DNA from: Brassica napus
Lineage: Eukaryota > Streptophyta > Magnoliopsida > Brassicales > Brassicaceae
DNA: 64,000 bases
Reading direction: 5' to 3'
Assembly: GCF_020379485.1 (NCBI RefSeq)
Contig: NC_063452.1
Location: forward strand, 31,209,608 to 31,273,607
Shown: one piece after another, positions 13,581 to 63,316 of the stretch
Numbering within the stretch: position 1 is the first letter of the stretch
How the letters are laid out: every line of letters begins with the position of its first letter
Made by a program: the position numbers and the translations under genes
Notes under the pieces: model-generated
The model's input: the letters and a program-made list of their open reading frames with translations, nothing else
Database searches by the model: none
What the model was told of the DNA's origin: nothing

Positions 13581-14350
13581 TAAACGGATCGATCGATGTA
13601 TATATATCCAAAAACGCATCGATCGATCACTAAGATGGACCGGACCGTAAGAATTGATCGATCGATGAGATTATCCCATCGATCGATCGAGAATCTCAAG
13701 TGTTCCTCGGAATGTCCTTGGAAAATCTTGTAAGTTTTTTTATAAACGGATCGATCGATGTATATATATCCAAAAACGCATCAATCGATCACTAAGATGG
13801 ACCGGACCGTAAGAATGTGATCGATCGATGAGATTATCCCATCGATCGATCGAGAATCTCAAGTGTTCCTCGGAATGTCCTCGGAAAATCTTGTAAGTTT
13901 TTTTATAAACGGATCGATCGATGGATATATGTCCAAAAACGCATCGATCGATTACTAAGATGCACCGGACCGTAAGAATGTGATCGATCGATGAGATTAT
14001 CCTATCGATCGATCGAGAATCTCAAATGTTCCTCGGAATGTCCTCGGAAAATCTTGTAAGTTTTTTTATAAACGGATCGATCGATGGATATATGTCCAAA
14101 AACGCATCGATAGATCACTAAGATGGACCGGACCGTAAGAATGTGATCGATCGATGAGATTATCCCATCGATCGATTGAGAATCTCAAATGTTTCTCGGA
14201 ACGTCCTCGGAAAATCTTGTAAGTTTTTTTATAAACGGATCGATCGATGGATATATGTCCAAAAACGGATCGATCGATCACTAAGATGGACCAAAGCGTA
14301 AGAATGTGATCGATCAATCCGTATTTGTTCAAAAACGCATCGATCGATGC
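13581..14350. repeat. 163-bp tandem repeat block inside the CACTA element
   Basis: Units start at about 13581, 13743, 13906, 14069 and 14232, with spacing 162-163 bp and about 4.7 copies. Each holds ATCGATCGAT boxes in both orientations, a conserved GGACCGGACCGTAAGAA block and a TTCCTCGGAATGTCC box. It lies directly upstream of the opposite-strand gene and may form its promoter. It is not a CRISPR array: the units are too long and contain no unique spacers. Confidence 0.9.
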
Positions 14351-19500: not shown

Positions 19501-20215
19501 TAACCCGCTGTTCATCCGCCCTCCAATAAATCATGCAGTTGTCGCTGCATACATCTATTACCTGATACGATAAACCAAGACCAGCTACGAGTTTCTGAAC
19601 CTCGTAGTATGAACCAGGAGCTACATTATCCTCGGGTAGAATACCTTTTACAAAATCAGCAATCGCATCCACACAGTCTTCAGCCAAATTATAATCTGTT
19701 TTAATGCCCATCAATCTTGTAGCAGATGATAAAGCTGAATGACCATCTCTGCAACCTTCGTACAATGGTTGCTTTCCAGCATCCAACATATCATAAAATC
19801 TCCTAGCTTCTGCATTGGGTAAATCTTCCCCTCTAAAATGATCATTTACCATCTGCTCAGTACCTACACCATAATCTACATCCGTTCTAATTGGTTCTTC
19901 TAATCTAACCGCTGGCTGAGGTTCGCTAGTACTACCATGTTCATAATCAGTTTCCCCATGATGATACCAAATTTTGTAACTTCGTGTAAACCCACTCAAA
20001 TATAGATGAGTCCAAACATCCCACTCTTTAATAACCTTTCTATTTTTACAATTAGAGCAAGGACATCTTAACATACCTGTTTTTTCTTCCGGTTGTCGGT
20101 GAACTAACCCCATGAATTTGGTTATACCTCGTTGGTATTCTTCCGTAAGCAATCTAGTGTTCGGATCCAAATGAGGTCGATCGATCCAAGAACGAAAATA
20201 ATTTGAAGAAGACAT
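16599..20215 (-). pseudogene. CACTA TNPD-type transposase (Transposase_21), 1-bp frame break
   Basis: Exons on the minus strand are 17641-20215, 17458-17557, 16975-17364 and 16599-16901. Exon 1 begins MSSSNYFRSWID and holds a transposase-associated domain (about residues 1-75, with CPCSNCKNRK), a TNP2/Transposase_21 core (about 150-560, including CTDGFSPFG and HNLDVMHIEKNFFDN) and a DUF4218-type region (about 650-775). Exons 2-4 carry a DUF4216 region (EEMKQREFTGWMFTYVSAG, FYCDWHDNTPDRGVR) and an acidic tail. The reading frame of exon 1 does not join exon 2: a base appears missing near 17650, just before the donor, so the unspliced frame stops at 17633. Otherwise the protein is full length and clean. 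It would cut the element ends and integrate the copy. Confidence 0.88.
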
Positions 20216-20329
20216 ATTTTTTATGAATCAAATTCGTGTGTAAATAGAGTAAGAGGGAGGATGAAGATATGGAGTGAATGAAGAGGAAGAGGAGGGCTTG
20301 TATTTATAGTTTAAATCCTGCCGACAGAC

Positions 20330-20650: not shown

Positions 20651-20674
20651 TACCGCTGTTTTCTTGTAGTGCGT

Positions 20675-20990
20675 ATTCATTGTTGTTGCTTTGATTTCTG
20701 TGTTCGTTCTTGCATTCTCTGTTAAAGAAGCTGAAGCAAACTCACTATAGGATACATGTCTTCTAAAAATCAGTCCAAAATGTGCGTAGGATATAATTGG
20801 TGTTGTCTTTGAAAATTAAACCATCACAGATGCATGTTGTCATGATCTTGTTCAAGAAGGAAAAATGTGTCACGATACTCTTATCAAATATATTGCTGAG
20901 AAGCCGCACTTAGTTTCCCACGAAACAGAGTATTTGAAGAAAAGTGATGATTTGTGGACTCATAGTGTCTCAATTTCGCAAACTACTTAA
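20675..20990 (+). pseudogene. 3' part of array copy 7, right of the CACTA element
   Basis: It resumes at ATTCATTGTTGTTGC, exactly where the 5' stub ended. Besides the insertion it carries its own lesions: TGG to TAG in the LWDTC codons, TTGG to TAGG in the CALDI region, a 1-bp change before the TITDAC block, and loss of the last cysteine codon (CATTGTGTC reads CATAGTGTC). The copy was therefore decaying independently of, or after, the insertion. Confidence 0.88.
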
Positions 20991-21620
20991 ATATATGTTA
21001 TGCTTGTATTGTTCTGATTAACAAGATTTTAATTCAACTATCGTTAAATTTTATTTGATCAACAATAGTGGATCAAACAGTAGGAAATATAAACCAACCA
21101 TCAAGTGAATCTCATTCTAAATGAATCAATACAAATATCAACTCAATTGAAAAACAATGTGCTAACCATACAAGATTGTTAAACTAATAAGAAGACATAT
21201 ATGAATAATTTCAAACAAGATTGCTTATTTAGTCTGATTTAACGTATCTTTTATTTTAAAATTTAATTTTCATCTAAGATGTCGATCATTAGCTTGAGAA
21301 TTTAAAACAAGAAGCTAAGAAAATATATAATGTTTCACCTTTGAAACCTTTTAGTTTAGTAGTACATGCTAAAATAATGGCTTGGAAAAAAAAAACTATT
21401 TTGAATACTCATGTTGTCGATGATTTTGTAAATACGATCATTTATAAAGAAAATAATGAGACTGGATGTAATCACGCAAAAGAACAATATCCTATGACTA
21501 GTAAGTAGATAATAACTTATGCCAAAGATATTAGGATGGAGGGTATGGATTTGAGTTTTAGATCGATCATAAAAATTTTGGAAAGAAAATTGTGCAGATT
21601 TTTTTGTTTCATTTTTTACA
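20991..21620. repeat. 3' flank and spacer of array copy 7
   Basis: Matches the spacers of the other units, including the recurring minus-strand reading frame, up to TTTCATTTTTTACA at 21620, where the Athila-derived sequence begins abruptly. About 650 bp of the expected unit is missing before the next copy. Confidence 0.85.
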
Positions 21621-23122
21621 GTTCAGATGGATACACAATGAGATAGGGTGATGTGGCAGGATCAGTGTGACTCCCCGCTCTCGGAGCGACCAGCTGTCCT
21701 CCTGTTCCTCGGTAGATTCTCTCCTGCCACGGAAGTTCCAGCCGGTTCCTTGCCCGGGCGATGTGATTGCTGCGGAGTCTGCTCATGCCCGGATGGCCGG
21801 GGCTCCTGACCGCCGAAACAACCTCCCCTGATCGCCTTGCAGATCTCTTCATGAGGCTGTTGTTCTTTCGCTGCGAATCAACCATCAAGCGGCGGTATGT
21901 GGCGGCGTCTGCGTCATCATCGAGTTGGCCAAAGTCATAGGGCGTGGCCTTATCCAGTGTGATGTCCTCTGGCTCATCCATCTCGTCATCCGGAGGTGGC
22001 GCTCGTGGGTCGGCGCAACGGAACTCCGGGTCAGGTAAGAAACGGATGTTCTCTATCGAGCTGAAGTTTGTGAGGTTGGGTTGTGGCAGCTTGAAGAACA
22101 TCACGTTTCCCTCCTTATCCATGAACCTGTATGTGGTCTCATCGTGAAGGATGTGGCACGAGATCAGATAGGGAGTATCCACATACTCAATGTTGTAATT
22201 GACCGCGTAGGCTCGCAAGTTGATCCCGAAGTGCTTGAACAGCGGAGTGAGCAAGCTGCCGCAGTGATCCTTCTTGTTCTCATTCCGGAGCAGGCAGTCT
22301 CTGCGCGAGTAGAACATCCAAATGAGATGGTACCCAGGGTTAGTTTGCACCAGCTGAAATGGGATTCCAGCTTGAGATCTGCGGATCTCATCCTCAAGGC
22401 CTGAGTACAGCATCTGCAGTTCTCCTTTGGTGACCTTGGAGGTCTGATCCTTGGTGAAAAGGAGGTTGGAGACCATCTTAGCAATCACCCTCAACGTAGG
22501 GTTTCTGATCTGGGACTGATATGCCTTGCGGGAGGCGAATGATCCGGTACCGGTTGCGATGAGGTCCCAAAACCTCTCTATTGGAGTGAACTTGTTCTCC
22601 ACTGCGACATCCTTTCGCTCGTCTGAGATCTCGTATATCTCGTTGAGCTTGTCAAGCGAAAGAGAGCAGAACTTGCCGTTGGCCATGAATGAGAAAAAAC
22701 AGTTCTCATATGTTGGCGCTTGAGGGTTTTCCTAGCTGATCTGAGCGGTGACGAGAGCTTGCCGGACGAGGTCTGGGTAAAGTTCGTACGTCTGGTAGCA
22801 GAGGGGAGCAATCCACATGGCACTGAGCGTCTCAAACACGTCGGTGTCAAGCCCAAGAGCAGCGAGGGTCTCTGTGTGACCAAATCGAATAGGCAAGATC
22901 TCAGTGTTGAGGAGTGTGTTATATCTTTGCGTGGACTCTTTGTCCCACCCTTCGCAGTTGATGGTGAGGAGCATTGGGTCGTTGAGATCGATCGGCTGAC
23001 CCTCTTGTCCCACACGCGGCCATGGGTAAGAGGCCGGGGCATTGTGGCCTGGCGGAGGCACGTAGTTCTCGCGGGGTGATCTTCAGAGTTTTCAATGCCT
23101 TTTTCTTGGTTCTCGGAGCCAT
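21616..23122 (-). pseudogene. ATHILA ORF-1-type protein (env-like position), broken
   Basis: The reading frame starts with basic MAPRTKKKALKTLK at 23122, shifts frame after ITPRE near 23065, meets one in-frame TAG at about 22729-22731, then stays open to 21616. The core matches the Athila ORF-1 family (FWDLIATGTGSFASRKAYQ, LRVIAKMVSNLLFTKDQ, HFGINLRAYAVNY). The last codons and the stop come from host spacer DNA, so the true C-terminus is deleted. Its role in Athila biology is not established; the position after integrase is the one described as env-like. Confidence 0.8.
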
Positions 23123-23621
23123 CTTGTTCGGTTGAGAGATTGCTGCAAAACTAGATTAAGCTTGAAATCCCAAGGAGTTAGAACCAAAATTGTGATAATA
23201 GATTGAGAGTTTAAAGTTTTTGATTTGGGGTTCTTTTCTTATGGGGAGGAGGTTTGCAGCGACTTTTGGGCTAAGTGGGGGAGTGGGGTGGTTGCCTTAA
23301 ATAGGCAAACCCTAACCGCTTCCTATTCTTTTTTTTTTTTTATTTGTGTCAAAACTTACCTGACGGAGCAGCTGTTCTCCAGCGAGAACAGTCTTTAGAG
23401 GAGCTCCAGTTATCCAGCGAGAACAATCTATGGGTTGTTCCTCCGGGAATCTTCGATTTTCTTTTCCTAGAACAAAATTCAAAACGAACTACAAAAGAAT
23501 TTGAAAGGAAAAACATATATTTACACTCACCAGTGGGTTGCCTCCCACCAAGCGCTCGATTTAAGTCACTAGCTTGACTTTGATCAGTCTATTGAGCTGT
23601 GGAGGGATCGCCCAAGGGAAT
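23123..23621. other. Untranslated spacer between integrase and the ATHILA ORF
   Basis: No gene is seen. It contains a poly-T run (about 23328-23341) and two near copies of CCAGCGAGAACA (about 23379 and 23416). Confidence 0.5.
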
Positions 23622-24800
23622 TTATTCACCTTCTTCGCTTGTCGTTTCAGCAAGGTATGGCTTTAGACGCTGACCATTAACGACAAACTCTCCTCCATTC
23701 GGATCCAGTAGCACCACTGCTCCATATGGTCTGACCTCCTTGACAGTGAACGGTCCGGACCATATGGATTTCAACTTCCCAGGGAACAGCTTCAGCCTGG
23801 AGTTGACGAGCAAGACTCGATCATTCGGTTCAAAGCTTCTGTTGATGATCCACTTGTCATGTTAGGCCTTGGTCTTTTCCTTGTAGATTTTCGTACTTTC
23901 ATAAGCCAGGTGCCTGATCTCTTCAAGTTCGTGAATCTGGATGGAACGCCTCTCCTTGGCTGATTTGATATCGAAGTTGAGTAGTTTGACAGCCCATGCC
24001 GCCTTGTACTCGGTTCCACAGGGAGGTGACAGACCTTGCCATAGACCAGATGATATGGAGTGGTCCATAGTGGCGTTTTGTAGGCTGTTCTGTAAGCCCA
24101 TAGCGCATCATCTAATTTTAGAGACCAGTCCTTACGTGTAGTTCCAACTGTTTTCTGCAGGATGCTCTTGATCTCTCTATTAGACACTTCCACTTGGCCA
24201 CTTGTTTGAGGATGGTACGCTGTAGCAACTTTACGCTTGACACCGTTCTTCTTCAAGAGGCCTTGGAAAACCTTGTTGATGAAGTGAATGCCTCCATCGC
24301 TTATGACCACTCTAGGTACTCCAAACCTTGGAAAAATGATGGTTTTAAACATTTTGGTTACAACCCGTGCGTCATTGGTGGGGCTGGTGATTGCCTCTAC
24401 CCACTTGGAAAAATAATCCACTGCCACTAGAATGTACTTGTTCTTATACGATGGTGGGAATGGTCCCATGAAGTCAATCCCCCAACAGTCGAACACCTCG
24501 ATCTCGAGTATGAAGTTCTGGGACATCTCATTCCGCTTGCTAATGTTCCCTTGTCTTTGGCACGAATTGCACTTGGAGATCAAAGCTTGTGCATCACGGA
24601 ACATTGTTGGCCACAAGAAACCGGCTTGCAAGCCCTTGGAGACGGTCTTGAATGCCGCAAAGTGCCCGGCGAAGAAGAACTGTGGCAGTGATGCAGGATC
24701 TCTGGAATTTCAGCTTCTTGAACACATCGTCGGAACACTCCATCCTTGCAGTGTCGATACAAGAACGGTTCATCCCAAAAGTAGAGTTTTGCATCCCTCA
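23622..24800 (-). pseudogene. Athila integrase
   Basis: Zinc-binding remnant with the [16 protein letters not shown] motif near the start, then an rve core: [17 protein letters not shown] (first Asp), [17 protein letters not shown] (second Asp) and [16 protein letters not shown] (Glu). It ends with a chromodomain-less tail, LKSIWSGPFTVKEVRPYGAV. Reading shifts frame around 24630 (upstream H-H part in another frame) and around 23860-23815, so no single ORF remains. It would insert retrotransposon cDNA into chromosomes. Confidence 0.85.
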
Positions 24801-25158
24801 GGAATTTCCGCTTCTCATTCCCAGTAAACTCAACTGGTTCCTTCTCTGCAACTAAAAAATTAGCTATCTCAGCGAACCAAGATAGGTGGGAATATCTCTT
24901 CTTTATAGCAGCAATAAAGTGTTCCTGGTCTGCGGAACAGTCCGCGGAACAATCGGAGAAACTTTCAGCGGAACAATCAGTAGAACAGTCTATGGCGTGG
25001 GTATCTGGTCTGTTCTCGGCATACAGAACAATCGCGTAGACTTGTTCTTCAGGGAGACTGTCATCAAGAGCGGTCTCTTCGTCGATCTTCATTTTTGACA
25101 AATGGTCGGCGACTCCATTCTCAATCCTTTTTTTCTCTTTGATCTCAAGGTTGAATTC
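24801..25158 (-). pseudogene. Athila RNase H-integrase linker
   Basis: Reading frame at 25101-24580 continues the polyprotein between RNase H and the integrase zinc region (AEIANFLV, RDAKLYFWDEPFLYRHC). It contains a short expansion of CSTDCSAESFSDCSADCSAD, encoded by imperfect repeats of GCGGAACA at about 24917-24990. Confidence 0.7.
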
Positions 25159-26528
25159 CTAGAGTAGGAAGATCCATCGGAGCAGGCGCGGTTTGGAATC
25201 TTTCTTCGTCAGTAAATACCTTAGAGCCGCATGATCTGTGTGCACTATCACTTTAGAACCTACTAGGTAGGACCTAAATTTCTCGAAGGCGTAGACAATG
25301 GCTAAAAGCTCCTTCTCGGTTGTGGCATATCGGCATTGGGCTTCATCCATCGTATCACATGCAGTTTCTTATCTTTTCTCTGTCCCAGAACTGCTCCTAC
25401 TGCGAAATCACTCGCATCTGTCATGATCACCAAAGGTAAGTCCCTGTCCGGAGGCTGAACAACCAGCGCACTGATCAAGGCTCCTTTTATCGTGTGGAAA
25501 GAAGTCAAACAGTCGCTATCAAAATCGAATTTGGTGTCCTTGCAGAGCAGTCTCGTGAGTGGTCTTGCGATCATTGAGAAATCCTTGATGAATCTCCTGT
25601 AAAAACCAGCGTGCCCCAAGAAACTCTTGATTCCCTTGACTGATGTTGGCGGCTGCAAGCTCATCATCACCTCAATCTTTGCCTTGTCGACCTCGATCCC
25701 CTTCTCAGAGATCATGTGCCCGAGAACAATCCCATCCTTGACCATGAAGTGGCACTTCTCCCAGTTCAGCACTAGATCCTTCTCCTCGCAGCGCTGCAAC
25801 AGCCTGCACAAATTTTTCAAACAAACAGAAAAGGATCTTCCATAGACACTAAACTCATCCATGAAAACTTCCTTTATGTCCTCAATCAGGTCAGTAAAAA
25901 TAGACATCATGCAACGTTGAAAGGTCGCAGGAGCATTGCACAAGCTGAATGGCATTCTCTTGTATGCAAACGTGCCATATGGGCATGTGAACGTCGTCTT
26001 CTCCTGATCATCAGGGTGGATAGGGATCTGAAAGAAACCTGAATAACCATCTAAAAAGCAATAGTATGGGTGGTTAGCCAACCGTTTAAGCATCTGATCA
26101 ATGAAAGGTAATGGAAAGTGATCTTTGCGAGTCGTAGCATTCAATTTGCGAAAATATGTGCACATGCGATGTCCAGTTACTGTTCGAGTAGGGATCAATT
26201 CATTCTTCTCATTTGTTATGACAGTTATTCCACCTTTCTTAGGAATTACATGAACAGGGCTAACCTAGTTACTATCAGAGATAACATAGATCACACCAGC
26301 CTCTAGAAGTTTCATTATCTATTTCTTTACAACATCTTTAAGATTTGGATTTAACCTCCTCTGATATTCTATAGAAGTCATCGATTCATCTTCTAGGTGT
26401 ATTCTATGCATGCAAGGATCAGGTGAAATGCCATGAATGTCAGCTAGTGAATAACATAATGCCTTACGGTACTTTCTTAGCTCACGCAAAAGTTTAGCTG
26501 TTTGCACATTGTTCAGTTCAGAGTTCAC
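25159..26528 (-). pseudogene. Athila reverse transcriptase and RNase H
   Basis: RT blocks are MCTYFRKLNATTRKDHFPLP, FLDGYSGFFQIPIHPDDQEK and the catalytic box, which reads FMDE instead of FMDD (GAG at 25854-25856). An active-site aspartate is therefore gone. RNase H follows, with MTDASDFAVGAVLGQ and, after a frame shift near 25330, [20 protein letters not shown] and [12 protein letters not shown]. Stops also separate the upstream piece at 26319-26528. The enzyme cannot be functional as read. Confidence 0.88.
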
Positions 26529-26621
26529 AATAACAGGATAAGCGGAATTTGGCCCTAAGAACGCGTACCTGAGCCCCGTAGGGAGTGATTTGAGCTCGAT
26601 CTTTGGAGCTTTCAGTTCGCT

Positions 26622-27509
26622 TCATGGATCGTCGAGTTGCATGTTTGGCTTAGTAGCGCCTTTCGAAGCGACTGCTCCAGTGGCATCACTCTGATTGCTC
26701 TCGTCTTTCTCCCTCAGACTTAGATAGGCGACAAGCCTTTCCATGCTTTTGGCAGAGTCAAGCATCTTGTCGTTGCCATCCGCGTCCACGCTCATGACGT
26801 TATGCTCTGTCTCAGAACGGATCAGAGCTAGCTCGAGTGGATCGTCGGTCAGGATTTCCTCAATCATTCCTTCTTGAGGGAATAGTGCCTGATCTTTAAC
26901 CTCAACGGTGTAGGTCTGCGCATCTAGCATTGGTTTCTTCAGCAATTTGTTCATTTCAAACTTCATCGCAATGTCTCCTAGGTGAAGATCAATCCTTCCT
27001 TGTCGAACATCGATGATCGCACCAGCTGTGCACAAGAAAGGACAACCTAGGATGAGTGGATCTCTCGGCTCTTCTTCAACCTCCAGAACCACAAAATCTG
27101 TCGGAACAAACGTGTTACCCACTCGGACATGAAGGTCTTCCAGAATACCCACCGGTGACTTGACTGACCTATCGCCGAACACCAGGGAGATTCTTGTCGG
27201 CTTGAAGTCTGTGAAGCCCAGTCATTTTGCCACGGAGTAAGGCATTAGATTGACGCTGGAACCCAAATCGCATAGAGAACAAGCGAATACGGTTCTCCCA
27301 ATTTGTACGGAGAGAATAAAATTGCTTGGATCATCCAATTTCTTAATCGGCTTGTTCTGAAGTACCGCAATGCACTCTTTTGAAACCATCAATAGTTCAC
27401 TGTCTCCAGTTACCTTTCCAGAGATCAACCCTTTCATCAAGTTGTGCATAAAAGGTATCATCTGGATCGAATCCACAAGAGGTAACTTGATAGTTAGATC
27501 CTTTAGCAT
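26622..27509 (-). pseudogene. Athila aspartic protease region
   Basis: The pepsin-like motif is CDLGSSVNLMP, with the LG variant of the DTG/DSG catalytic triad normal for this lineage, followed by LILGCPFLCTAGAIIDV. An in-frame TGA at about 27219-27221 lies between the two, right after PYSVAK. It would cleave the Gag-Pol polyprotein. Confidence 0.8.
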
Positions 27510-27541
27510 CTTTTTACACTTGGTCTCCTCCCGGTCCTTGC

Positions 27542-27629
27542 GAGTTGTCTTTGCCGAAACAGGATATGGAACCTTAGGGGTGTATTGCGAGTTTTCTTTG
27601 CCGAAACAGGATATGGAACCTTAGGGGCA
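27542..27629. repeat. 47-bp direct duplication in the Athila gag-pol junction
   Basis: The segment from 27542 to 27588 (with TTTGCCGAAACAGGATATGG) is repeated from 27589. Since 47 is not a multiple of three, it shifts the frame, and reading before it (gag frame) and after it (protease frame) differ accordingly. Confidence 0.85.
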
Positions 27630-29398
27630 ACGGGTTGAGTGACAGGGGTTGGATCAGTCTCAACATACTATTACGGTTCCTCGTCCGACAAAGGGGGTGG
27701 TTCAGATCGTGGTTGCTCACCCTCTTTTTGCTTACCCTTTTCCGCTGCTGACAACTTCTTGGGAATTGTATCTGGTAGGGTTCTTCCAATCCTCAGTGCT
27801 ACGGCATTGCATTCCTTAGGGGTTTTATCGGTCTTTCCAGGTAGAGTACCTTGCTGCCTCTTGACGCTCTCGGCTGTCTGCGCGATCTGAACATCCATCT
27901 GGCGCATATGACTAGCTACGTTATCATATTTGGTACTCAAGTCATTGAACATGTGGTTCATCCTGGAGTTGATGTCCATGGTGACTTGATTCAACGCTTT
28001 CCCTTAAATTTGCTGACCCTGGAGAAACTGCTGCATCATAGTCGCTAGACCCTTAATCTCGTCTTGCGGAGCAATCGCTGGCGAAGGAGCAGTCTGTTGA
28101 GCAGTTTGCAGTTTCTGGTTCTGGAACTGGTTGTGCTGCGCTTGGCTCAGGACATATGTTCTTCCCTGGTATGGTTTCTGATAGCCGATGTTCTGCCCTT
28201 GACTGTTCTGCGCGTTGTCAACCGGTTTGTCAGCCTTGGGATACGCAAAGAGGTAAGGATTGTTCCTAACGTTGGGGTTCGGGTGGTAGTTTTTGTACTG
28301 CCATCCTTGTCCATTAACGTAGCTCACTTCTTGCTGATCATCCACAGTATTGTCTCCTTCAGGTGTAGCGTCTAAAACATTGTTCTCTGATGCAGCTTCC
28401 TCCATGATGAACACTTTGCTCTGATTACCCTTCAACAGCTGGTCACCCTTTGCCGCGAGATCGTCTATGCTGTTTACGCTTTTGGAGCGATCATTCTCCT
28501 TGTTCTTGTTGAGGGAGCTAGACGCCATATTTTTAATCAGTGCGAATGCACCAGGTGTTGTTTGGGTCATGAAATCCCCATTGCTCGAGGAATCTAGAGC
28601 ATTGCGAAACTCATAGCTCACTCCATCATAGAACACTTCCAGTATATAGTCATCCTCAAACCCATGGTGAGGGCACTCCCTTCGGTATTCCTTGTAACGC
28701 TCCCAAGCATCATAGAAAGGTTTGTCGGTCTTTTGCTTGAAATTCGAGATCTTCTGCCTCAGAGCTGCGGTTTTGGACTTCGTGTAGAAGTGGCTTAAGA
28801 ACGCTGCTCTGACTTGTTCCCATGTAGTGAGCGTACCGGTTGGGAGCGAGTCAATCCAGCGAGCTGCTTTCCCTTCCAATGACAGTGGGAACAACGTGCA
28901 TTTGACGTAGTCTGGTAGCACTCCATTCGCTCGAGAGAAATTTTAGACTCTCTCGAAGTTCTCGATGTGGTCCAAAGGGATTTCAGCCGCGAGACAGTTA
29001 AACGTTTTCTCCTGCACCAAGCTGATCAAAGCAGGTTTGATTTCATAATCCTGTCGAGTGCAGGGAGGAGGGATGATGGCGGAGCAAGTGGTGGGGAAGT
29101 TTCGCGTAAGGTTCTGCTCTCCGATGGGAGCGCCTTGTTGCTCGACTTGCTGATCAATGAGGTCGGCGGCTGCTTGGCGAGCAGCTTCTTGTGCATTGAC
29201 GGTCTGTTGCATCTGCTGCATCTGTTGTTGCATGAGCGCCATTGCAGCAGTGAGATCATCTTGGCCTCCGTGATCAACCATTGTGGTGTTAGTAGGCCGC
29301 GGTTGTTGATGGTTCTGTCTTTCTAACCTTGCGAGCTCTTCGTTACTTATCGTGATTAATGGTCCTTGTGCGTTGCTCCGAGTATGTCTACTAGTCAT
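27630..29398 (-). pseudogene. Athila gag
   Basis: One frame from the ATG at 29398 (MTSRHTRSNAQGPLITISNE) is interrupted by a TAA at 28940-28942, another TAA near 28004-28006 and a double stop near 27668-27673. The Q-rich N-terminus (QQQMQQMQQTVNAQ) is followed by the Retrotrans_gag core (LFPLSLEGKAARWIDSLPTG, WEQVRAAFLSHFYTK, FKQKTDKPFYDAWERYKEYR). The tail is Q/N-rich. It would form the retroelement particle. Confidence 0.87.
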
Positions 29399-36979: not shown

Positions 36980-37618
36980 TCGATCAACGACTAGAGATGT
37001 CCATCAATCGATGTTTGACTCTGAGTGTCGACTCTGGACTGGTTCGATGGACAGCTACGAGTTTCATCTAGCTTTTTCTCCAAAATGCTCCAAAATCACC
37101 ACATATCTCCAAAACACTCATGGACCTGTAACTACTCTAAAAGGACTCCAAAGCATTCCCCCTATGTTTCTAAATAAGTGTCACTTTGACACTTTTCAAG
37201 GAGATTAAGAAATTTATATAATTGACTAGTATATCCCTTTTTAATGTATGATTAATTCAATATGAATGATTTAAATAAAAAATATTAGTTATTTAAAAGG
37301 GTAAAAAGTAGATTTAATGTACAAAATTACATTGAGATTGTAGAATGACACTTATTTAAAAAAAAAAAAAAACCTAAAGTGACACTTATTAAGAAACATA
37401 GGGAGTAATAAATAACTTCTAAAACACCTAAATATCATGGCTAAAAACTGGTTAAATCAATGGTATAACACTTTATCTCCAAAATGCTTCATAATCACCT
37501 ATTGCTCCAAAACATACTTGAAACTGTAAAGACTCTAAAAACACTTCAAAACATAATAAATATATTCTAAAACACTTATATACCACGACTGAAAACTGGT
37601 AAAATTCATGGTATATCA
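36980..37618 (-). repeat. Fragment of another LTR, bordering the array
   Basis: Sequence between the 3' LTR above and the array ends GGTATATCA at 37618, the same terminal pattern as the Athila LTR end at 30698. It holds two diverged copies of a segment with CTCCAAAATGCTYCAWAATC (about 37078 and 37477). It is interpreted as the start of a minus-oriented LTR whose element body is gone. A MITE lies within it. Confidence 0.55.
37157..37406. mobile_element. MITE with TATGTTTCT/AGAAACATA ends
   Basis: The left end reads CCCCTATGTTTCTAAATAAG and the right end is its inverted partner (AAGAAACATAGGGAG). Length is about 250 bp, AT-rich, without an ORF. A related TIR with AAAGTGACA occurs in the element at 58987-59191. 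Confidence 0.75.
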
Positions 37619-37632
37619 AAAGCATTGGCACA

Positions 37633-37979
37633 ATGGCTCACAGTACCTCCTGAACTACTATCATATTCATTGTTGTTGCTTTGGTTTGTGCGTTCGTTCA
37701 TGCATTCTCTGTTGGAGAAGCTGAAGCAAAATCACTATGGGGTACGTGTCTTCTTAAATTTTGTCCAAAATGTGCGTTGGATATAAGTTTGTTATCATTG
37801 AAAATTTGACCATCACTGATGCATGTTTTCATGATCTTGTTCAAGAAGGAAAAGTGTGTCACGATACTCTTATCAAATATATTGCTGATAAGCCACAGTT
37901 AGTTGCCCACGAAACATAGTATTTGAAGAAAAGTGATGATTTGTGGACTCATTGTATATCAATTTCGCAAACTGCTTAA
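37633..37979 (+). pseudogene. Broken Prolamin_like/ECA1-type gene (copy 8)
   Basis: CGA to TGA at codon 7 (TCCTGAACTAC), a small deletion around ISLLSLK that shifts the frame, and TAG in place of GAG near HET. The LTR fragment ends only 14 bp before the ATG, so the native promoter and TATA box are gone. Dead gene. Confidence 0.88.
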
Positions 37980-38967
37980 AATATGTTTTGTTTGTATTAT
38001 TCTGATTAACAAAACATTTATTCAACTATCGTTAAATTTTCTTTAATCAAAAATCATGGATCAGACAGTATGCAATATAAACCGACCATCAAGTGAATCT
38101 CATTCTAAATGAATCAGTACAAATATTAACTCTATTGAAAAACAATGGGCTATCCATATAAGATTGTTAAACTAATAACAAGTCATATAAGAATAATTTC
38201 AAATAATATTGCTTAATGAGTTTGATTTAACGTATCTTTAATTTTTAAACTCAATTTTCATCTAAGAAGTCAATCATTATTTTTACATACACTGAAAAAT
38301 TATCTTGATAATTTAAAACAAGAGGTTAAAAAATATCTAATATTTTACCTTTGGAACCTTAGAGTTTAATAGTAAATGATAAACAATGACTTGGAAAAAA
38401 CAATAGTTTGAATACTCATATTATTGACGATTTTATAAATATGATAATTTATACAGAATACAATGAGACTGGCTGTAATCATCCTATGACTAGTAAATAG
38501 ATTATAACTTATGCTAATAATATTAGCATGGAGCGTATGAATTTGAGTTTTGTATCAATCACTAAAGTTTTGGAATCAAAATTGTGAACATTTTTTATTT
38601 TATGTTTACAATTTGTAGATTTGGCTTCCAATTTTTTAATAGATTACAACCCTTTACTTTTGGAAAATTAACTGTTTAATACAAATATTTTTTTTTCATC
38701 AGTTCCAGTTTCATTTCTATGAAATTATATCTGTATAATTTATATACTAGCTATGGTTTAGCTATAAAATTTGTTCTAGTAGTAAATTCTTACAAAATTG
38801 AGATAAGCGATATAAGACAATTAATACTCGATTAAATTCACATTCTTAAACCCAAATTTATGTAAGATGATGGAGCCTATTAACATTTACATAAAATAGA
38901 GAATATGAATAAACCAGGGTTAAATTCGATTGGTAGGTTATTTCTTAATCATAAATAACTTAAAACA
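37980..38967. repeat. 3' flank and spacer of array copy 8
   Basis: Same order as the other units, more diverged (missing the CGCAAAAGAAC stretch near 38480). It ends in AATAACTTAAAACA (38954-38967), the left copy of the LINE target duplication. Confidence 0.85.
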
Positions 38968-40528
38968 ATGCATACCATCATGGGATAAACTCTGTGCCCC
39001 TAAGGATGAAGGAGGGTTGGGTTTTAAAGATCTCACAGATTTCAATACAGCAATGCTGGGGAAACAACTATGGAGGCTGATAAAGAAACCGAACACTTTA
39101 TTTTCTCGAGTGTTCAAAAGAAGGTATTTCAGAAATGTATCACCCCTGGAACCAAATAGATCGTACTCGTCATCTTATGGCTGGCGTAGTATTGTCTCCG
39201 CTAGATCTCTGGTTAGCAAAGGACTAATCAAAAGGGTGGGATCATGATCATCTATCTCAGTATGGAATGATCCTTGTCTCCCATCCACTCGCCCGAGACC
39301 AGCAAATAAAAATCAACACAACCTTTACCCGTACCTTACAGTGGATTCTCTCATTGATGTAACATCTAGAACATGGAATTCACAGGCTATTCGGACTCTG
39401 GTGGACCCGCAAGATGCAAAAATTATTGAAAGCATTCCTTTAACTCGAATTCAGACAGTAGATCGGGATGGATGGCATTTTAAAAAAAAAGTGGAAGGTA
39501 TACATTTAAATCTGGATATCAAGTAGAGCGGGTGTATCCTGATAGTGGACGAACATTACCAGAGTATGGTCCTTCGGTTTTGCCCTTGAAGGCGCATTGT
39601 TGGAAGGTACGATGTCCACCGAAGATAAAACATTTTCTATGCCAACTTGTAACAGGATGTATAGCGGTGAAGAAAAAATTACGCTCACGAGGAATCCATG
39701 GGGACACACGGTGTGGATCACCAGAAGAGTCCATAAATCATGTGTTTTTTGAATGCCTACCAGCAATTCAGGTTTGAGCACTTTCACGAATTCCATCGAA
39801 TCCGGACTATTTGCAAATGGACCATTTATTTTGGAGGGTTACCCCGGAAATAGAAGATCATCAATTTGCATGGATCTTATGGTACATATGGAAAAGAAGA
39901 AACAATAAAGTTTTCAGTAATATGGATATTGATCCGTGTGAAACTCTTAGATTGGCAGAAACGGAGTTGGTACTCTGGGCTGAGGCACAAATTACAATTA
40001 CACAGAGAACTGACCAAGCTCGGACTGCAACGAACGTGACAATACCATCTATCTCAGGTAGATGGTGTTTCACGGATGGATCTTGGAAAGACGGGGAAAC
40101 ATTTTTGGGACAAGGGTGGTATAGTACGCTAGAAGGTTTTGATGGTCTAATGGGAGCAAGAAATACAAGAGCGAGTCAATCACCTCTTCATTCGGAGATA
40201 GAAGCTTTTATTTGGGCTATGGAGTGTATGAGGAATCTAAGACAGTTAAACGTCATATTTGCAACAGATTGTTTTCAATTGGTGAAGATGGTTTCTGAAC
40301 CTGAAGAGTGGCCAGCCTCTGCAAGTTATTTGGAATATATAAAGTTATTGAAGAGAAGTTTCAACAATTCAGAGCTCATCTATATACCACGGACGCATAA
40401 TTCAAAGGCGGACAGTCTAGCACGCAGTGCAAAAAATCAACCGTCTTTTGTTGTCCATATAGACGCGGAGCTTCCAGTTTGGTTTACAGAGTCTATATAA
40501 ATATGTTTGTTGCTAACAAAAAAATAAT
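38968..40528 (+). mobile_element. 5'-truncated L1-type LINE insertion
   Basis: Flanked by a 14-bp direct repeat AATAACTTAAAACA (38954-38967 and 40529-40542) that is single in the other array units. Contents in order: the end of the RT region (CAPKDEGGLGFKDLTDFN, AMLGKQLWRLIKKPNTL), a zf-RVT zinc-binding region (WKVRCPPKIKHFLCQLV, CGSPEESINHVFFEC), and an RNase H domain (RVT_3) at about 40064-40470 (FTDGSWKDGE, SEIEAFIWAMECM, NSKADSLARSA). An in-frame TGA at 39245-39247, a frame shift near 39500-39530 and a TGA near 39776 break it. The 3' tail is A-rich. Confidence 0.93.
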
Positions 40529-40834
40529 AATAACTTAAAACATTAATAATTAAAAAATATTTTGTTTTGATAGAATTTATTTTAAATAATAAGTATATGT
40601 TTTTCTAAATTTTATAAATATGTTCGAGAAAACTCATATCAACAGTCACATTTTATTTAACGATAAACTGCATTAATTAACTTGTTATGTTCACTTGAAA
40701 ATACGGTTAGTTTGTGTTTGAGTGTTTAATCTCCTATAAATATGAGACAAAACTTCATTCTAAAAACAAAATCAAACATTTATATATTATATTAATAAAT
40801 AATATTTGCCACTTATTTCGAGAGCATTGGCACA
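40529..40834 (+). repeat. Array unit promoter region for copy 9
   Basis: Continues the unit after the LINE. The TATA-like box reads CTCCTATAAATATGAG at about 40731-40746, in the usual place. Confidence 0.75.
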
Positions 40835-41110
40835 ATGGCTCACACTACCTCCTGAACTATTATTGTATTCATTGTTGTTGTTTTGGTTTGTGCGTTCGTT
40901 CCTGCATTCTCTTTTGAAGCAAAATCACTTTGAAATACATGTCTTCTTAAAATTAGTCAAAAATGTGCGTTGGATATAATTGGTGTTGTCTTTAAAAGGT
41001 TTACCATCACTGATGCATGTTGTCATGATCTTGTTCAAGAAGAAAAAGTGTGTCACGATACTCTTATCAAATATATTGCTGATAAACCGTACTTAGTTGC
41101 CCACGAAATA
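40835..41110 (+). pseudogene. Broken and truncated Prolamin_like/ECA1-type gene (copy 9)
   Basis: The same CGA-to-TGA change at codon 7 as copy 8 (CTCCTGAACTA), a deletion removing the EEAE codons, LWDTC read as L-stop-NTC, and NLTIT changed to RFTIT. Similarity stops inside the HET codons at about 41110. The shared nonsense change suggests that copies 8 and 9 derive from one already broken ancestor. Confidence 0.87.
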
Positions 41111-41367
41111 CAGTTTTACTAAAAAGTAAAAATACATTTATATCCTAAGGTTAACTATTTCAGATTTAGGGTTTAAAATTAACAGGTGGAGTTTTGAGGA
41201 TATGATTTCAAATTTTTTTTAAAAAAATACTATTAAAATTTTTAAAATAAAAAGAGGCTATTTTGATCATTTTTTAATTGAGAGCTATTTTTGTGAAAAA
41301 AATTTAAAAAGGTTATTTGTGACAAAAAAGAATTTTCCTTCCTTTAATGTACATTTAAAAATTAAAA
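41111..41367. other. AT-rich junction between the array and the Helitron
   Basis: No gene is seen. The sequence has poly-A/T runs and a GATTTAGGGTTTAAAATT stretch of a kind often seen in dispersed Brassicaceae repeats. The array ends abruptly at its left edge. Confidence 0.4.
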
Positions 41368-55700: not shown

Positions 55701-56757
55701 GAAACTAAAATTAGATTTGATAATAATAATACACGTATCAACCGTATAAATATCATTTCTATAAGACCATATTATATATGGTTAATCAAACCAAATAAAC
55801 TTAAAACTAATTAGTTAAAATATAGTATTATAGTTATATATAAACTATATAATAGAATTGATAATATGAATACGTGAATTAATTTTTACTGATACATTTT
55901 TAATAAAGTCTGATTTTAATAATTTGTTTTCATTTTCTTTCACTTTCAACAATTTAGATAAAATATATTTTCTATATTTTTTGTTGAGAGATTTGTTTTG
56001 CTAAATGTTAATTATTTAGTAATATTTTAAATTTTATTAAAATATTTTTTATTTTGTGGACATTAAAATATTTTAATTACTTTTTAATTTAATTTTACTA
56101 ACTATTTTATTGAAACATATAAATATTTTTTTTAAACATTTTTATAAAACATTTCTTTTTTAAACATTTTTTAAAAGTACTAAAATGAAAAATAATTATG
56201 ATTTTTAATAAAACCAAATAAATCAAAAATCGAAAAACCGAAAATATATAAATCTAACTAAACCATAGTAGTTATAAAATACCAAAAAACTGAATCTAAA
56301 TCCGAATTGAACACACCCCTGGCACTGCTAGTAAATATTGTGGACCAATAAAAGAAACAGGATGTTCATGATTATAAGAATAGAAAAATGGGATATAAGT
56401 TACCCGGGCATGGATAAACTCCTCGACTCTGCCGCCGGCGAAACGGCCAAGTAGTCTTGGACCGTGGCCATGTCGGGCCACGAACTCAAAAGTCCGAATC
56501 TCGTCGTCTCTGTTAAAGAAAAGCTCAACGCCTTCACCATAGACACGAACAAGAAGTTTCCTACATCGAAGATTCGTTTCTTTTCTAGGCCAACTCACCA
56601 TGAACACTTCGTTAGTCATCGCTCCTTTCATCGGCTTCACTTCAAGACTCTCAAGATCCTCAATTACGTCTCCCCATTTTGTCGAAAGTTTTTGCAGAAT
56701 CTTCCTTAGCTCGTCTGGTGATGAGCTTGGGATCAATCCAAAGATTCCTATTGCCAT
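52774..56757 (-). CDS. CEK3: Choline/ethanolamine kinase (seven coding exons)
   Basis: Minus-strand exons: 56404-56757, 53832-53953, 53546-53747, 53272-53389, 53144-53191, 52963-53063 and 52774-52884; 1056 nt, 351 aa. The N-terminal lobe has the substrate/ATP region ([27 protein letters not shown]). The phosphotransferase loop [13 protein letters not shown] has the catalytic Asp and Asn, and the choline kinase motif follows ([19 protein letters not shown]). It phosphorylates choline with ATP, the first step of the CDP-choline route to phosphatidylcholine, in the cytosol. The symbol follows recalled synteny with Arabidopsis At4g09760 and could be wrong as to paralogue. The intron after exon 1 is 2450 bp because a hAT-type element sits in it. 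An upstream leader exon (from 56877) is spliced exactly to the ATG. Confidence 0.9.
54801..55647. mobile_element. Non-autonomous hAT-type element in the choline kinase intron (847 bp)
   Basis: Flanked by an 8-bp duplication ACATTTAT (54793-54800 and 55648-55655). Inverted ends are CCCTGTTCGAAACTACGC and, from the other side, CTCTGTTCAAAAACGCGG. Next to each end are GC-rich CTAGGCG-type boxes in inverted arrangement (54818-54850, 55590-55632). No transposase is present. 8-bp duplications are the hAT hallmark. Confidence 0.82.
55347..55400 (+). promoter_or_regulatory. snRNA-promoter-like USE plus TATA pair inside the hAT element
   Basis: AGTCCCACATCG (55347-55358) fits the plant snRNA upstream sequence element RTCCCACATCG. 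TATAAATTA follows after 33 bp (from 55392), close to the spacing of RNA polymerase II snRNA promoters in plants. No recognisable U-snRNA follows. It may be a captured promoter, or this box may just be common in repeats. Confidence 0.4.
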
Positions 56758-57030
56758 CTGGAACTTCAAATAAAATAAGTCAGGATCAAGAAGTAAGCTA
56801 TTTAGTATCAACGGACTGACAAATCAAGAAGTCTGTTTAACTAAATGATCAAACTTGGGATGAAAAAGAAGCTTACCAAGAGAGTTGCAAGGAACCTTGT
56901 AACCAGAGAAAGACTTCGAAATAGAGTGAAAAAAAAGATATTGTTGGAGAGAAGTCTTGGTGTGAAGGAAAGACAAATTGCATGGTGAATGAGAGAGGTG
57001 TAGAAAGGGGGTATTTATGGACTTTTGTCT
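56758..57030 (-). promoter_or_regulatory. Leader exon, leader intron and TATA box of the choline kinase gene
   Basis: The leader-exon donor is at 56876/56877 (CTCTTG/GTAAGC on the minus strand). The acceptor TTCCAG lies right before the ATG at 56757, giving a leader intron of about 119 bp. A TATA-like CATAAATACC lies at 57010-57019 (minus), so transcription probably starts near 56980. Confidence 0.6.
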
Positions 57031-57537: not shown

Positions 57538-57675
57538 ACATTTACAGTGAGAAGAGTGAGAAGATGATAAGAACAAAATTTATTATGCATTATTTATCCG
57601 GAAAATGGCATTCACATAATCACACTATAGACATTAGTCACATCGTTGCAGAAGTTGGGCCGAGATAAACCATAA

Positions 57676-57881
57676 GAGTATGATTATAGGAAGGTTTTTA
57701 GGATGTGATTTTTAACGGAATATAAGAATCCGTCTCTTAACTTTTAACTAAAAAAGTTAAGAACCGGTTTTTAAATAAAAATTTTAAGAGACGGTTCTTA
57801 ACTTTTTTAATTAAAAGTTAAAAGACGGGTTCTTATATTCCTTTAAGAACCTCACTTTAAGAACCCCCAATAATCATGCTC
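57676..57881. mobile_element. Tourist/PIF-like palindromic MITE (206 bp)
   Basis: Nearly the whole element is an inverted repeat. The left end is GAGTATGATTATAGGAAG and the right end (inverted) is GAGCATGATTATTGGGGG. Inner arms share AAGAAYCCGTCTCTTAACTT. It is flanked by TAA on the left and TTA on the right, close to the TWA target of PIF/Harbinger elements. Confidence 0.75.
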
Positions 57882-58986
57882 TTATATAATATATCATGTT
57901 ACCATGATCAGAGAATGACATTTCCAAAGAAGAGTACTCTCTAAAGAACTTTAGAAGGGTTTCGCAAATACTTTCAGAAACAGTCAATTCCTCAATTTAA
58001 TTTGTAACAAAGTTTTCCAAAAAGATAATACTATTAAGAGGTTGGTCATTTTTGTAAATAGGAGTCATACATTTATAATATTTCTGCCAATGTCATTGTA
58101 ATTTAACAATATTAATATCATGATCTTTCCTAACAGTTTTGCTAGTTTATTTTAGGTTTAAAACTTTAAATCCTCCATTTTGACCAAAACAAAATTTGAC
58201 CCAAAAAAAAACTTTAAATTCTCCATAATATAATTCAAGGTTCGATAAACTATTTTGGACAGTAAGACAAAAGAAGGTAACGACTGCATCGGACCTTTGG
58301 CTGCTAATTTTCAGACAGATAAGCTTCCTTACTTATGTCGCAGTTAAAGCGTCTAGTAAACTGCAGAACTCAACTTGTATTCCACTTCCCTAGTAAACAG
58401 AGATCAACATACGACACGTTTTAATATAGAATTTCTTTAATATAACCACTCGTTTGAACAGGATTACGTTGAGAGTTTTTACATTGCCGTCCTACTCACC
58501 TAAACTTCTATATACTTTTCTGTTTATATTTGTTTTGATGGAAAAAACGCGGTGCCTAATATATACACGAGAAAGGAAACATAATAAACCTAGTTTCCAA
58601 ATGCGATGGTTGTTGACAGAAGGAAAAAAATCGTGATGATATAAGATTGTATTTTAAGAGTGATGCTCATACTCTCTCCATTTTGTATTAGTTGTCGTTT
58701 TAGAATAGAAATTTTGTTTTATTTCAATAGTCATTTTCCACTTTCATTGCATTTTTATTATTTTTTCCAATTTTACTATTATTCTCCTATTTCATTAGTT
58801 AAGATAATCAAATTAATTAATATTTAATTATGGGAAAATAACAAATTTAATAATTATTTTAATCTGTATGAAAAACCTTAACTATATATAAACTGAAACA
58901 GAGAAAATATATAAAATTTAGATTACATGTGCATCTTGTTTTGTATAGTTAACTATTTCCCGTATTTTTAACTAGCAAAATTTCAA
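57882..58986. other. AT-rich intergenic region
   Basis: No gene is seen. A possible decayed MITE at about 58672-58918 has a TACTCTCTCCATTTTGTATT left end and only a weak right partner. Confidence 0.4.
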
Positions 58987-59191: not shown

Positions 59192-59646
59192 TAATATAAT
59201 TATTAATTGTTGTTTTGAAGTTTACGATTGATCATTAGTTTATACATTGAAAATATAAAAATTGAATCTTTTTGAAACAATTGTTTTTTTAAACCATGGA
59301 TATTTTCGGAATATAGGGAATATTTATTTTGTTGAAATGGAGGATCAACATCAATAATCCGGAATTTGGAGTTGATATTTTTGTTGTTGGGGTATAAATA
59401 TAGTTAGCTATACATCCACGTCATGTGAGAATCAAGTCAAAAGAGTTGAAAATGGAATTGACGTAAGAATTAACGTCTGGCTGAGAGACAAGATTCTCCT
59501 TAATTTATATATTTTGCTCTAAATAATACGTGATGCTTTTGCCTTTTGTTTAACAAAATATTATTCTCCTTCTCCCTCAACCGTTTATTGTGTGTTTCAG
59601 TCGATTTTATTCTTAAAGTTTGTGCTCACTTTTCTATCATATTCTT
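59192..59646. other. AT-rich intergenic region before the MULE trimer
   Basis: No gene is seen. It ends with CATATTCTT (59638-59646), the left target duplication of the next element. Confidence 0.45.
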
Positions 59647-62600
59647 GGATCGACCATCTATTTCCCCACGATAACTATCATATAACATCAAATCTCCACC
59701 GAACTTTAACCTCATGCTAAATCTCCACAAAATAAAAATTGCAAAGCTATTTCTCCATGAATCAATTGTTCGTAACTTTATTACCCATAGATCATGGTTT
59801 AAATTGGTTTATTGGTTTTAATTGGTTTACTCCTAATCAAAAAGCTTAAAATCAATTAAACCAAACCAAAATCCAATTTTTATATATAATTTTTTTTCTT
59901 AAAAAATTTATCATCTTCTTCAAAGGCCTTCCTTCTCCTTTTTCACCAACGTCGTTAATCCTAGCCATGGCCAAAAACTGATCTTCTCTCATGATCAATT
60001 TATTGGTGAGAGCGAAAGAAGTATTGGAGTCATCCCAAACCTTTCTTAGTACACAATACCGTCACTGGTCTTCCTAAAGCCGATAAGCTCTGTTGCTCGC
60101 GGCGTTTCTCCTCCTCTGACCCTTCACTCATCGTCTCTGAGCATCTCCTCAATCCAGGCTGTAATCTCTCCTCCATTGCCGTTTAATCAAAAACGTAGAC
60201 ATCACCATCGTAAATCCGTCAATATACTGCAGGAGAGACTCGCAGTTTTCGGTATATATGCTTATGTTGCGGACGAATTTGATGGTTTCTGGAGAAAAAA
60301 AGACGATATGGGTTTAATCTAACCGACATGTTGATGAATTAAATGTTGAATTTGGTTTCTGGGTACTTAAGCCTCTCAAAGAAAAGGCATGGGCGGATAT
60401 CCTTGATGAAGGGGACAATATTGATTGGAAGAAGAATATAAGTTTGATGTTTCTTTGAAAAAAAAATGCAAAAGAGATTTTAGTACATCACAGAAACATA
60501 AGAAGGTTTACGAATTACGGTGGTTCAGGTGGGAAGTTTATGCGTTTTTTTTTTTACAACTGAAGAAGGTTTTGTTTTGTTTATCAGAAAACAAAGATAC
60601 ATCACAGATGGAGAGCTGGTAAAAAAACATATATAAAAATTGGATTTTGGTTTGGTGTAATTGATTTTAATTTGTTTGGTTAAGAGAAAACCAATTTAAA
60701 CAAATAAACCAATTTAAACCGTGGTCTATGTGTAATTAAGTTTTGAACTATTGATTCATGGAGAAATAAGTTTGTAACATTTAATTCATGGAGATTTAGA
60801 ATGAGGTCATAGTTCGGTGGGGATATGATGTTATATGATAGTTATCATGGGGAAATAGATCGTCCGTCGACCATCTATTTCCCCACGATAACTATCATAT
60901 AGCATCAAATCTCCACCAAACTTTAACCTCATGCTAAATCTCCACAAAATAAAAATTGCAAAGCTATTTCTCCATGAATCAATAGTTCGTAACTTAATTA
61001 CCCATAGATCATGGTTTAAATTGGTTTATTGGTTTTAATTGGTTTACTCCTAATCAAAAAGCTTAAAATCAATTAAACCAAACCAAAATCCAATTTTTAT
61101 ATATAATTATTTTTCTTAAAAAATTTATCATCTTCTTCAGAGGCCTTCCTTTTCCTTTTTCACCAACGTCGTTAATCCTAGCCATGGCCAAAAACTGATC
61201 TTCTCTCATGATCAATTTATTGGTGAGAACGAAAGCAGTATTGGAGTCATCCCAAACCTTTCTTAGTACACAATACCGTCACTGGTCTTCCTAAAGCCGA
61301 TAAGCTCTGTTGCTCGCAGCGTTTCTCCTCCTCTGACCCTTCACTCATCGTCTCTGAGCCTCTCCTCAATCCAGGCTATAATCTCTCCTCCTCCATTGCC
61401 GTTTAATCAAAAACGTAGACATCACCATCGTAAATCCGTCAATATACTGCAGGAGAGACTCGCAGTTTTCGGTATATATGCTTATGTTGCGGACGAATTT
61501 GATGGTTTCTGGAGAAAAAAAGACGATATGGGTTTAATCTAACCGACATGTTGATGAATTAAATGTTGAATTTGGTTTCTGGGTACTTAAGCCTCTCAAA
61601 GAAAAGGCATGGGCGGATATCCTTGATGAAGGGGACAATATTGATTGGAAGAAGAATATAAGTTTGATGTTTCTTTGAAAAAAAAAATGCAAAAGAGATT
61701 TTAGTACATCACAGAAACATAAGAAAGTTTACGAATTACGGTGGTTCAGGTGGGAAGTTTATGCGTTTTTTTTTTACAACTGAAGAAGGTTTTGTTTTGT
61801 TTATCAGAAAACAAAGATACATCACAGATGGAGAGCTGGTAAAAAAACATATATAAAAATTGGATTTTGGTTTGGTGTAATTGATTTTAATTTGTTTGGT
61901 TAAGAGAAAACCAATTTAAACAAATAAACCAATTTAAACCGTGGTCTATGTGTAATTAAGTTTTGAACTATTGATTCATGGAGAAATAAGTTTGTAACAT
62001 TTAATTCATGGAGATTTAGAATGAGGTCATAGTTCGGTGGGGATATGATGTTATATGATAGTTATCATGGGGAAATAGATCGTCCGTCGACCATCTATTT
62101 CCCCACGATAACTATCATATAGCATCAAATCTCCACCAAACTTTAACCTCATGCTAAATCTCCACAAAATAAAAATGCAAAGCTATTTCTCCATGAATCA
62201 ATAGTTCGTAACTTAATTACCCATAGATCATGGTTTAAATTGGTTTATTGGTTTTAATTGGTTTACTCCTAATCAAAAAGCTTAAAATCAATTAAACCAA
62301 ACCAAAATCCAATTTTTATATATAATTATTTTTCTTAAAAAATTTATCATCTTCTTCAGAGGCCTTCCTTTTCCTTTTTCACCAACGTCTTTAATCCTAG
62401 CCATGGCCAAAAACTGATCTTCTCTCATGATCAATTTATTGGTGAGAACGAAAGCAGTATTGGAGTCATCTCAAACCTTTCTTAGTACACAATACCGTCA
62501 CTGGTCTTCCTAAAGCCGATAAGCTCTGTTGCTCGCAGCGTTTCTCCTCCTCTGACCCTTCACTCATCGTCTCTGAGCCTCTCCTCAATCCAGGCTATAA

Positions 62601-63307
62601 TCTCTCCTCCTCCATTGCCGTTTAATCAAAAACGTAGACATCACCATCGTAAATCCGTCAATATACTGCAGGAGAGACTCGCAGTTTTCGGTATATATGC
62701 TTATGTTGCGGACGAATTTGATGGTTTCTGGAGAAAAAAAGACGATATGGGTTTAATCTAACCGACATGTTGATGAATTAAACATTGAATTTGGTTTCTG
62801 GGTACTTAAGCCTCTCAAAGAAAAGGCATGGGCGGATATCCTTGATGAAGGGGACAATATTGATTGGAAGAAGAATATAAGTTTGATGTTTCTTTGGAAA
62901 AAAAAAATGCAAAAGAGATTTTAGTACATCACGGAAACATAAGAAAGTTTACGAATTACGGTGGTTCAGGTGGGAAGTTTATGCGTTTTTTTTACAACTG
63001 AAGAAGGTTTTGTGTTGTTTATCAGAAAACAAAGATACATCACAGATGGAGGGCTGGTAAAAAAATATATATAAAAATTGGATTTTGGTTTGGTGTAATT
63101 GATTTTAAGCTGTTTGGTTAAGAGAAAACCAATTTAAACAAATAAACCAATTTAAACTGTGGTCTATGTGTAATTAAGTTTTGAACTATTGACTCATGGA
63201 GAAATAAATTTGTAACATTTAATTCATGGAGATTTAGAATGAGGTCATAGTTCGGTGGGGATCTGATGCTATATGATAGTTATCATGGAGAAATAGATCG
63301 TCCACCC
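59647..63307. mobile_element. Head-to-tail trimer of a long-TIR Mutator-type element
   Basis: Three units (59647-60867, 60868-62087, 62088-63307; about 1217-1220 bp) are nearly identical. Each unit starts and ends with inverted repeats of roughly 180 bp (outer bases GGRTSGACSATCTATTTC; CATGGTTTAAATTGGTTTAT at the inner limit). The whole trimer is flanked once by a 9-bp direct repeat CATATTCTT (59638-59646 and 63308-63316). The two inner junctions read AGATCGTCCGTCGACCATCT with no 9-bp duplication. Long TIRs plus a 9-bp duplication define MULEs. There is no transposase. Confidence 0.87.
59940..60640 (+). other. Central non-repeat core of the MULE unit, possibly captured gene sequence
   Basis: Between the TIRs, reading frames such as QERLAVFGIYAYVADEFDGF and KPLKEKAWADILDEGDNIDW look protein-like but are interrupted by stops. 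The same core, with the same stops, is present in units 2 and 3 (around 61140-61880 and 62350-63080). No known protein is recognised. Pack-MULEs often carry host gene fragments, so capture is a reasonable inference. Confidence 0.4.
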
Positions 63308-63316
63308 CATATTCTT

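Follow-up and report, generated by a model that had tools for sequence, protein, structure and literature searches.

A tandem array of three whole transposon units, the middle one a mosaic of the two outer ones, occupies positions 59647-63307 of the 64,000-base stretch of DNA analysed here (hereafter the window). Our analysis makes it quite probable that a dimer, A followed by B, was converted into a trimer, A followed by a B/A hybrid followed by B, by one unequal exchange that came after the head-to-tail dimer had formed. The three units (U1, U2, and U3) are ~1.22 kb each, lie in one orientation and can be aligned end to end, and the ~3.66-kb array is enclosed by one pair of copies of a 9-bp target-site duplication (TSD), CATATTCTT. 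The features of the array, including the terminal inverted repeats (TIRs), are as follows.

59638..59646, plus strand: left 9-bp target-site duplication CATATTCTT, exact match
59647..60865, plus strand: U1 (type A), beginning with the outer left end GGATCGACC
59652..59895, plus strand: left TIR arm of U1, about 244 nt
60621..60864, minus strand: right TIR arm of U1
60621..61112: inner junction 1 (60865/60866) and the palindrome of abutting TIR arms, with a 4-nt spacer
60866..62085, plus strand: U2, mosaic, left half B-type (U3-like) and right half A-type (U1-like)
61388..61563, plus strand: 176-nt tract identical between U1 and U3, holding the putative U2 crossover
61841..62331: inner junction 2 (62085/62086) and its palindrome, with the same junction sequence as junction 1
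62086..63307, plus strand: U3 (type B), ending with the outer right end GATCGTCCACCC
63308..63316, plus strand: right 9-bp target-site duplication CATATTCTT, exact match

The first base of U1 is 59647 in this list and 59648 in the comparison scripts. An earlier note on this DNA had described a head-to-tail trimer with a 9-bp duplication at its outer ends only. Full-length alignment of all three units bears out the trimer and the coordinates given for it, and CATATTCTT is exact at both outer ends with no copy inside. In the whole window, CATATTCTT has two exact plus-strand copies, at 59638-59646 and 63308-63316, and its reverse complement has one, far off at 3233. The same note had reasoned that a duplication at the inner junctions would mean separate insertions; CATATTCTT is absent from both of them. 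With respect to the TIRs, the arms in each unit measure about 244 nt at ~86% complementarity, and the proposed length of ~180 bp was too short. Judged by its TSD (9 bp, about 9-11 expected) and TIRs (about 244 nt, >100 bp) only, the unit is consistent with a non-autonomous Mutator-like element (MULE) of the long-TIR type.

The ends of the units differ between the outside and the inside of the array. At the left, the outer end reads GGATCGACC and the inner ends start with GTCGACC. At the right, the outer end reads GATCGTCCACCC (reverse complement GGGTGGACGATC), in which ACCC is present beyond GATCGTCC; the inner right ends are without this terminal ACCC. Both inner junctions consist of GATCGTCC followed directly by GTCGACC, without a 9-bp duplication, and the two are identical to each other over 320 nt leftward and 91 nt rightward. 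To judge from the outer ends, two G are probably missing from the inner left ends as well. The proposal that the inner junctions are eroded and unduplicated is therefore upheld, as both ACCC and CATATTCTT are missing at both. A history of three separate insertions was ruled out by the absent inner duplication together with the identical junctions.

The mosaic structure of the middle unit emerges from pairwise comparison. Over whole units, U1 and U2 differ at 1.15% of aligned bases, U2 and U3 at 1.31%, and U1 and U3 at 2.47%. To the left of alignment column 600, substitutions amount to 0.33% between U2 and U3, 2.18% between U1 and U2, and 2.52% between U1 and U3; to the right of this column the corresponding values are 2.26%, 0.16%, and 2.43%. 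Considering variable substitution sites individually, U2 equals U3 at 13 of 15 sites in columns 1-523 and equals U1 at 14 of 15 sites from column 700 onward, and this contrast in agreement has a Fisher p of 2.2e-5. A single breakpoint accounts for 27 of the 30 substitutions (permutation p 1.7e-5). When indels are included, 32 of all 38 events fit (permutation p 1.1e-4), as do 29 of the 35 events away from the ends (permutation p 4.0e-4). The breakpoint was chosen from the data, which is allowed for by the permutation test and not by the Fisher test.

Six of the 38 events do not fit a single breakpoint: substitutions at alignment columns 307, 388, and 863, and changes in the length of short runs at columns 92, 815, and 903. 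Under a single-breakpoint model, all six must be later changes or conversion. In each of the misfit substitutions the odd unit out is U1 or U3, never U2, a distribution with a probability of 0.125 if changes fall evenly. More generally, none of the 30 substitutions is private to U2, for which the chance is 5e-6 under three independent equal lineages. A trimer made by rolling-circle copying was also considered and was ruled out, given that the units are not equidistant and that U2 has no private substitution. The tract holding the putative crossover is, at 176 nt, the longest that is identical between U1 and U3, with the next two at 112 nt. The near-identity of the units that was originally reported is not uniform, as U2 is a hybrid of the outer two, and U1 and U3 stand 2.47% apart.

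These observations are readily accommodated by unequal crossing-over. The first step of the proposed history would have placed two related units, A and B, head to tail in a single target site, at a junction from which A's right end had lost its terminal four bases and B's left end probably two. In the second step, B of one chromatid or homologue would have mispaired with A of the other, and a single exchange in the longest A-B identical tract would have produced A, B/A, and B in succession and duplicated the old junction. Since a misaligned exchange copies the junction, two identical junctions can arise without two similar accidents. Two predictions of the model agree with the array: both inner junctions (2 of 2) are identical, and U2 is a mosaic in the right direction, its left part coming from the 3' unit and its right part from the 5' unit as unequal exchange requires. 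In the third step, with complete-looking ends confined to the outside of the array, the inner units would probably be immobile singly; the 3.66-kb array could move as a block, and more unequal exchange can lengthen or shorten it. The exchange may have occurred either at this locus or earlier, before the array moved as a block. Replication slippage between two units would yield the same product as exchange. Of the two histories put forward in the earlier note, insertion of a trimer as one unit or amplification of a monomer in place, whole-block insertion is possible as to place, but neither predicts a mosaic U2.

A hybrid middle unit might also be generated during assembly, if the repeat graph of a true dimer was traversed once too often. 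U2 is roughly what one extra loop would produce, and its lack of private substitutions (0 of 30) points the same way. Nevertheless, deriving U2 from U1 and U3 takes 7 switches on substitutions alone, and the poly-T run of U2 is 10 long, compared with 11 in U1 and 8 in U3; we regard an artefact as improbable. Gene conversion between repeats could likewise produce mosaics, and three independent elements might have been homogenised by it later. This history requires three insertions and two identical junctions, and further requires one breakpoint in the predicted direction, which makes it highly improbable.

Under the preferred reading, a dimer enlarged by one unequal exchange, two ages can be separated. 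Over about 1214 nt, 3 substitutions separate U2 from its putative sources (0.25%, 95% limits 0.05-0.72%) and 27 separate A from B (2.2%, 95% limits 1.5-3.2%). The mutation rate of Arabidopsis is 7e-9 per site and generation. At this rate, the trimer step would date to ~0.18 million generations ago and the A-B split to ~1.6 million, the latter figure dating the array only if this divergence took place at the present site; at 1.5e-8 each value is about half. On these counts, the A-B split looks several times as old as the trimer step, and it is this ratio, rather than the absolute dates, that carries weight. The recent event suggested in the earlier note is a suitable description of the trimer step, with 3 substitutions in about 1.21 kb, and less so of the split between U1 and U3.

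How the founding dimer arose is a separate matter. We favour, only tentatively, double insertion as the most probable route, in which the already duplicated target site received a second element and a small deletion then took place at the palindrome centre. B would have landed next to A, so that three copies of the target repeat were present at first; loss of the inner copy together with a few terminal bases would have followed, and the unequal exchange would have come later. Long palindromes are liable to deletion at their centre, and the bases lost here lie at a palindrome centre. The 27 substitutions between A and B are natural for separate elements, and this route leaves room for outer repeats that are identical despite having two original units between them. 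It is also a route reported for tandem dimers in Drosophila, where, as related in reviews, McGurk and Barbash (2018) identified insertion site preference as the main one (PMC12628747, PMC7214746, PMC9659126). On the other hand, neither inner junction holds a copy of CATATTCTT, and a deletion of ~15 bp has to be assumed. One TIR arm, from which the ancestral state was judged on an alignment read by eye, assigns derived changes to A and B alike.

Close behind is a route in which opposite ends were broken on two chromatids and then joined. Two chromatids or homologues would have been cut by transposase, one at the right end of the element and the other at the left end, and joining of these ends in place would leave an empty site as the reciprocal product. 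The outer repeat pair, the absence of an inner repeat, and the loss of a few terminal bases are all predicted directly. We know of no MULE case of such joining across chromatids, which weighs against this route, as does the divergence of the units: on sister chromatids, the 2.2% between A and B must have accrued in place, and on homologues, the alleles must have differed by 2.2%. A precedent comes from the maize Ac/Ds elements, in which transposon ends are used alternatively across sister chromatids (PMC3744419). Overall, we treat end joining in place as possible, at less than even likelihood. A longer chain of events, in which a cut by MULE transposase and end joining in place founded the dimer, the inner ends were disabled, the array grew by unequal exchange, and the block may move, appears unlikely.

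It is doubtful, though conceivable, that the array took shape at another locus, or in an extrachromosomal joined form, before being inserted here as one block by means of its complete outer ends. The outer ends alone look complete and alone bear the 9-bp repeat, and tomato MULEs that have several TIRs and no recognisable inner duplication, and that occur in multiple copies, offer a parallel (PMC3310237). However, no second array locus was found within the 64,000-base window, and a rolling-circle mechanism acting on one circle would yield equal units rather than a mosaic. Further loci with GATCGTCCGTCGACC and TIR on either side of it would mean that the joined form is mobile.

Another consequence of the head-to-tail arrangement is a large palindrome at each inner junction, as had been pointed out before. 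The arms of the first (60621-60864 and 60869-61112) are 4 nt apart, and as RNA this palindrome, the one that was folded, gave -277.7 kcal/mol (z -34), with none of 100 shuffles equal to it. Taken alone, one unit already has the form of an inverted repeat, its loop measuring about 725 nt; the strong fold at the junction is due to the abutting of the TIRs. Hairpin transcripts that silence the family, as suggested in the earlier note, are possible on the basis of this predicted fold.

Regarding coding content, no Pfam match above the cut-off was obtained for six translated frames of U1 (44-90 aa, a subset of its frames), and the only match below the threshold was to LVIVD (E 0.094). The absence of a transposase from the U1 frames bears on autonomy only. 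No protein matched a 91-aa frame of U2, with none of 5 candidates reaching E 0.01, and the sole match of a 69-aa frame of U2 was the 46-aa database entry P0065, which has the sequence read from U1. No captured host gene fragment, as in a Pack-MULE, was recognised in the U1 and U2 frames examined. P0065, from 3 contigs (the longest of 1089 bases), is identical to the minus-strand reading of U1 and not to those of U2 or U3; A-type sequence occurs in the data set to which this entry belongs. It equals U1 at two A/B sites, and as the contigs are unplaced, this does not settle whether A and B are separate elements.

Searches for other copies returned little. Whole units had no match outside the array within the window at E 1e-5. 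The TIR arms gave only short AT-rich matches in the window (best E 0.004 over 51 nt, at 40537-40585), and so did the inner part (best E 0.038 among the matches listed). A 13-base end pattern had one match with 2 mismatches, at 39153, where 1.88 were expected by chance overall. Exact element patterns had no matches in collections of viral and prokaryote contigs, in which little was expected.

Other repeats and genes are found along the same window. Positions 1-10000 carry a tandem array of prolamin-like genes in ~1.6-kb units, with matching blocks about 84-95% alike, and pieces of the unit recur at 20672-21623, 37612-38967, and 40514-41117. For the one prolamin-like gene searched (n=1), the protein matched database proteins bearing PF05617, and the best 2 of 64 matches were from B. 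oleracea var. botrytis (92%) and B. napus (90%), which points to Brassica or a near relative as the host. The piece at 20672-21623 lies between a CACTA-type transposase and an ATHILA frame. The former is an 864-aa open frame (17636-20227, minus strand) with Transposase_21 (tnp2), Transpos_assoc, and DUF4218 domains. ATHILA ORF-1 frames occur in both orientations (14847-15377, plus strand; 21619-28942, minus strand), and minus-strand frames for gag, reverse transcriptase, and integrase accompany ATHILA ORF-1 as the remains of an Athila-like retrotransposon. A 163-bp tandem repeat of 4.6 copies, rich in GATCGATCGAT motifs, spans 13573-14315. Nearer to the trimer are a partial choline/ethanolamine kinase gene that contains the start of the domain (56299-56823, minus strand, about 2.8 kb from the array) and an imperfect palindrome of about 214 bp (57672-57885), 80% identical to its own reverse complement and possibly a small inverted-repeat element.

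That tandem transposons expand by unequal exchange is already known. Among the literature matches listed, as seen in titles and abstract openings, there was no head-to-tail MULE trimer with a mapped exchange. The tandem dimers of Drosophila resemble this array in being head-to-tail and in growing by unequal exchange, but the junctions of P elements were reported to be the size of a TSD, whereas the inner junctions here have no TSD and have lost terminal bases (reviewed in PMC12628747, PMC7214746, PMC9659126). A tandemly duplicated FB4 element has been mentioned (PMC8277862), and tandem LTR elements have been described (PMC11899658). The CMITEs of corals likewise form arrays of full-sized TIR elements; unlike the MULE units, they have piggyBac-like relatives and TTAA duplications, and their authors thought replication slippage probable (PMC2872659). 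The likeness to maize Ac/Ds lies in ends on different chromatids that yield tandem duplications, but those are hAT elements, flanking DNA is duplicated, and the breakpoints carry 8-bp target duplications (PMC3744419). In this setting, the trimer represents an initial stage of the known passage from transposon to tandem repeat, and knowledge of either process is unchanged by it. Its value is that of a small readable case, in which a recombination breakpoint can be placed, both junctions are identical, and two ages can be told apart.

The closest comparison is with the long-TIR plant MULEs of Ferguson and Jiang (2012), which share with this array extra TIRs and a single outer duplication, with none recognisable inside (PMC3310237). 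Of their tomato elements, most (48 of 61) have external and internal TIR pairs in tandem at both ends of a single element (PMC3310237). The origin of the extra TIRs is left open there among recombination, nested insertion whose inner duplication was lost, slippage, and acquisition (PMC3310237). The present locus bears on that question of extra MULE TIRs without an inner duplication, and it differs from the MULEs described there in that three whole units follow one another and the recombination breakpoint can be mapped.
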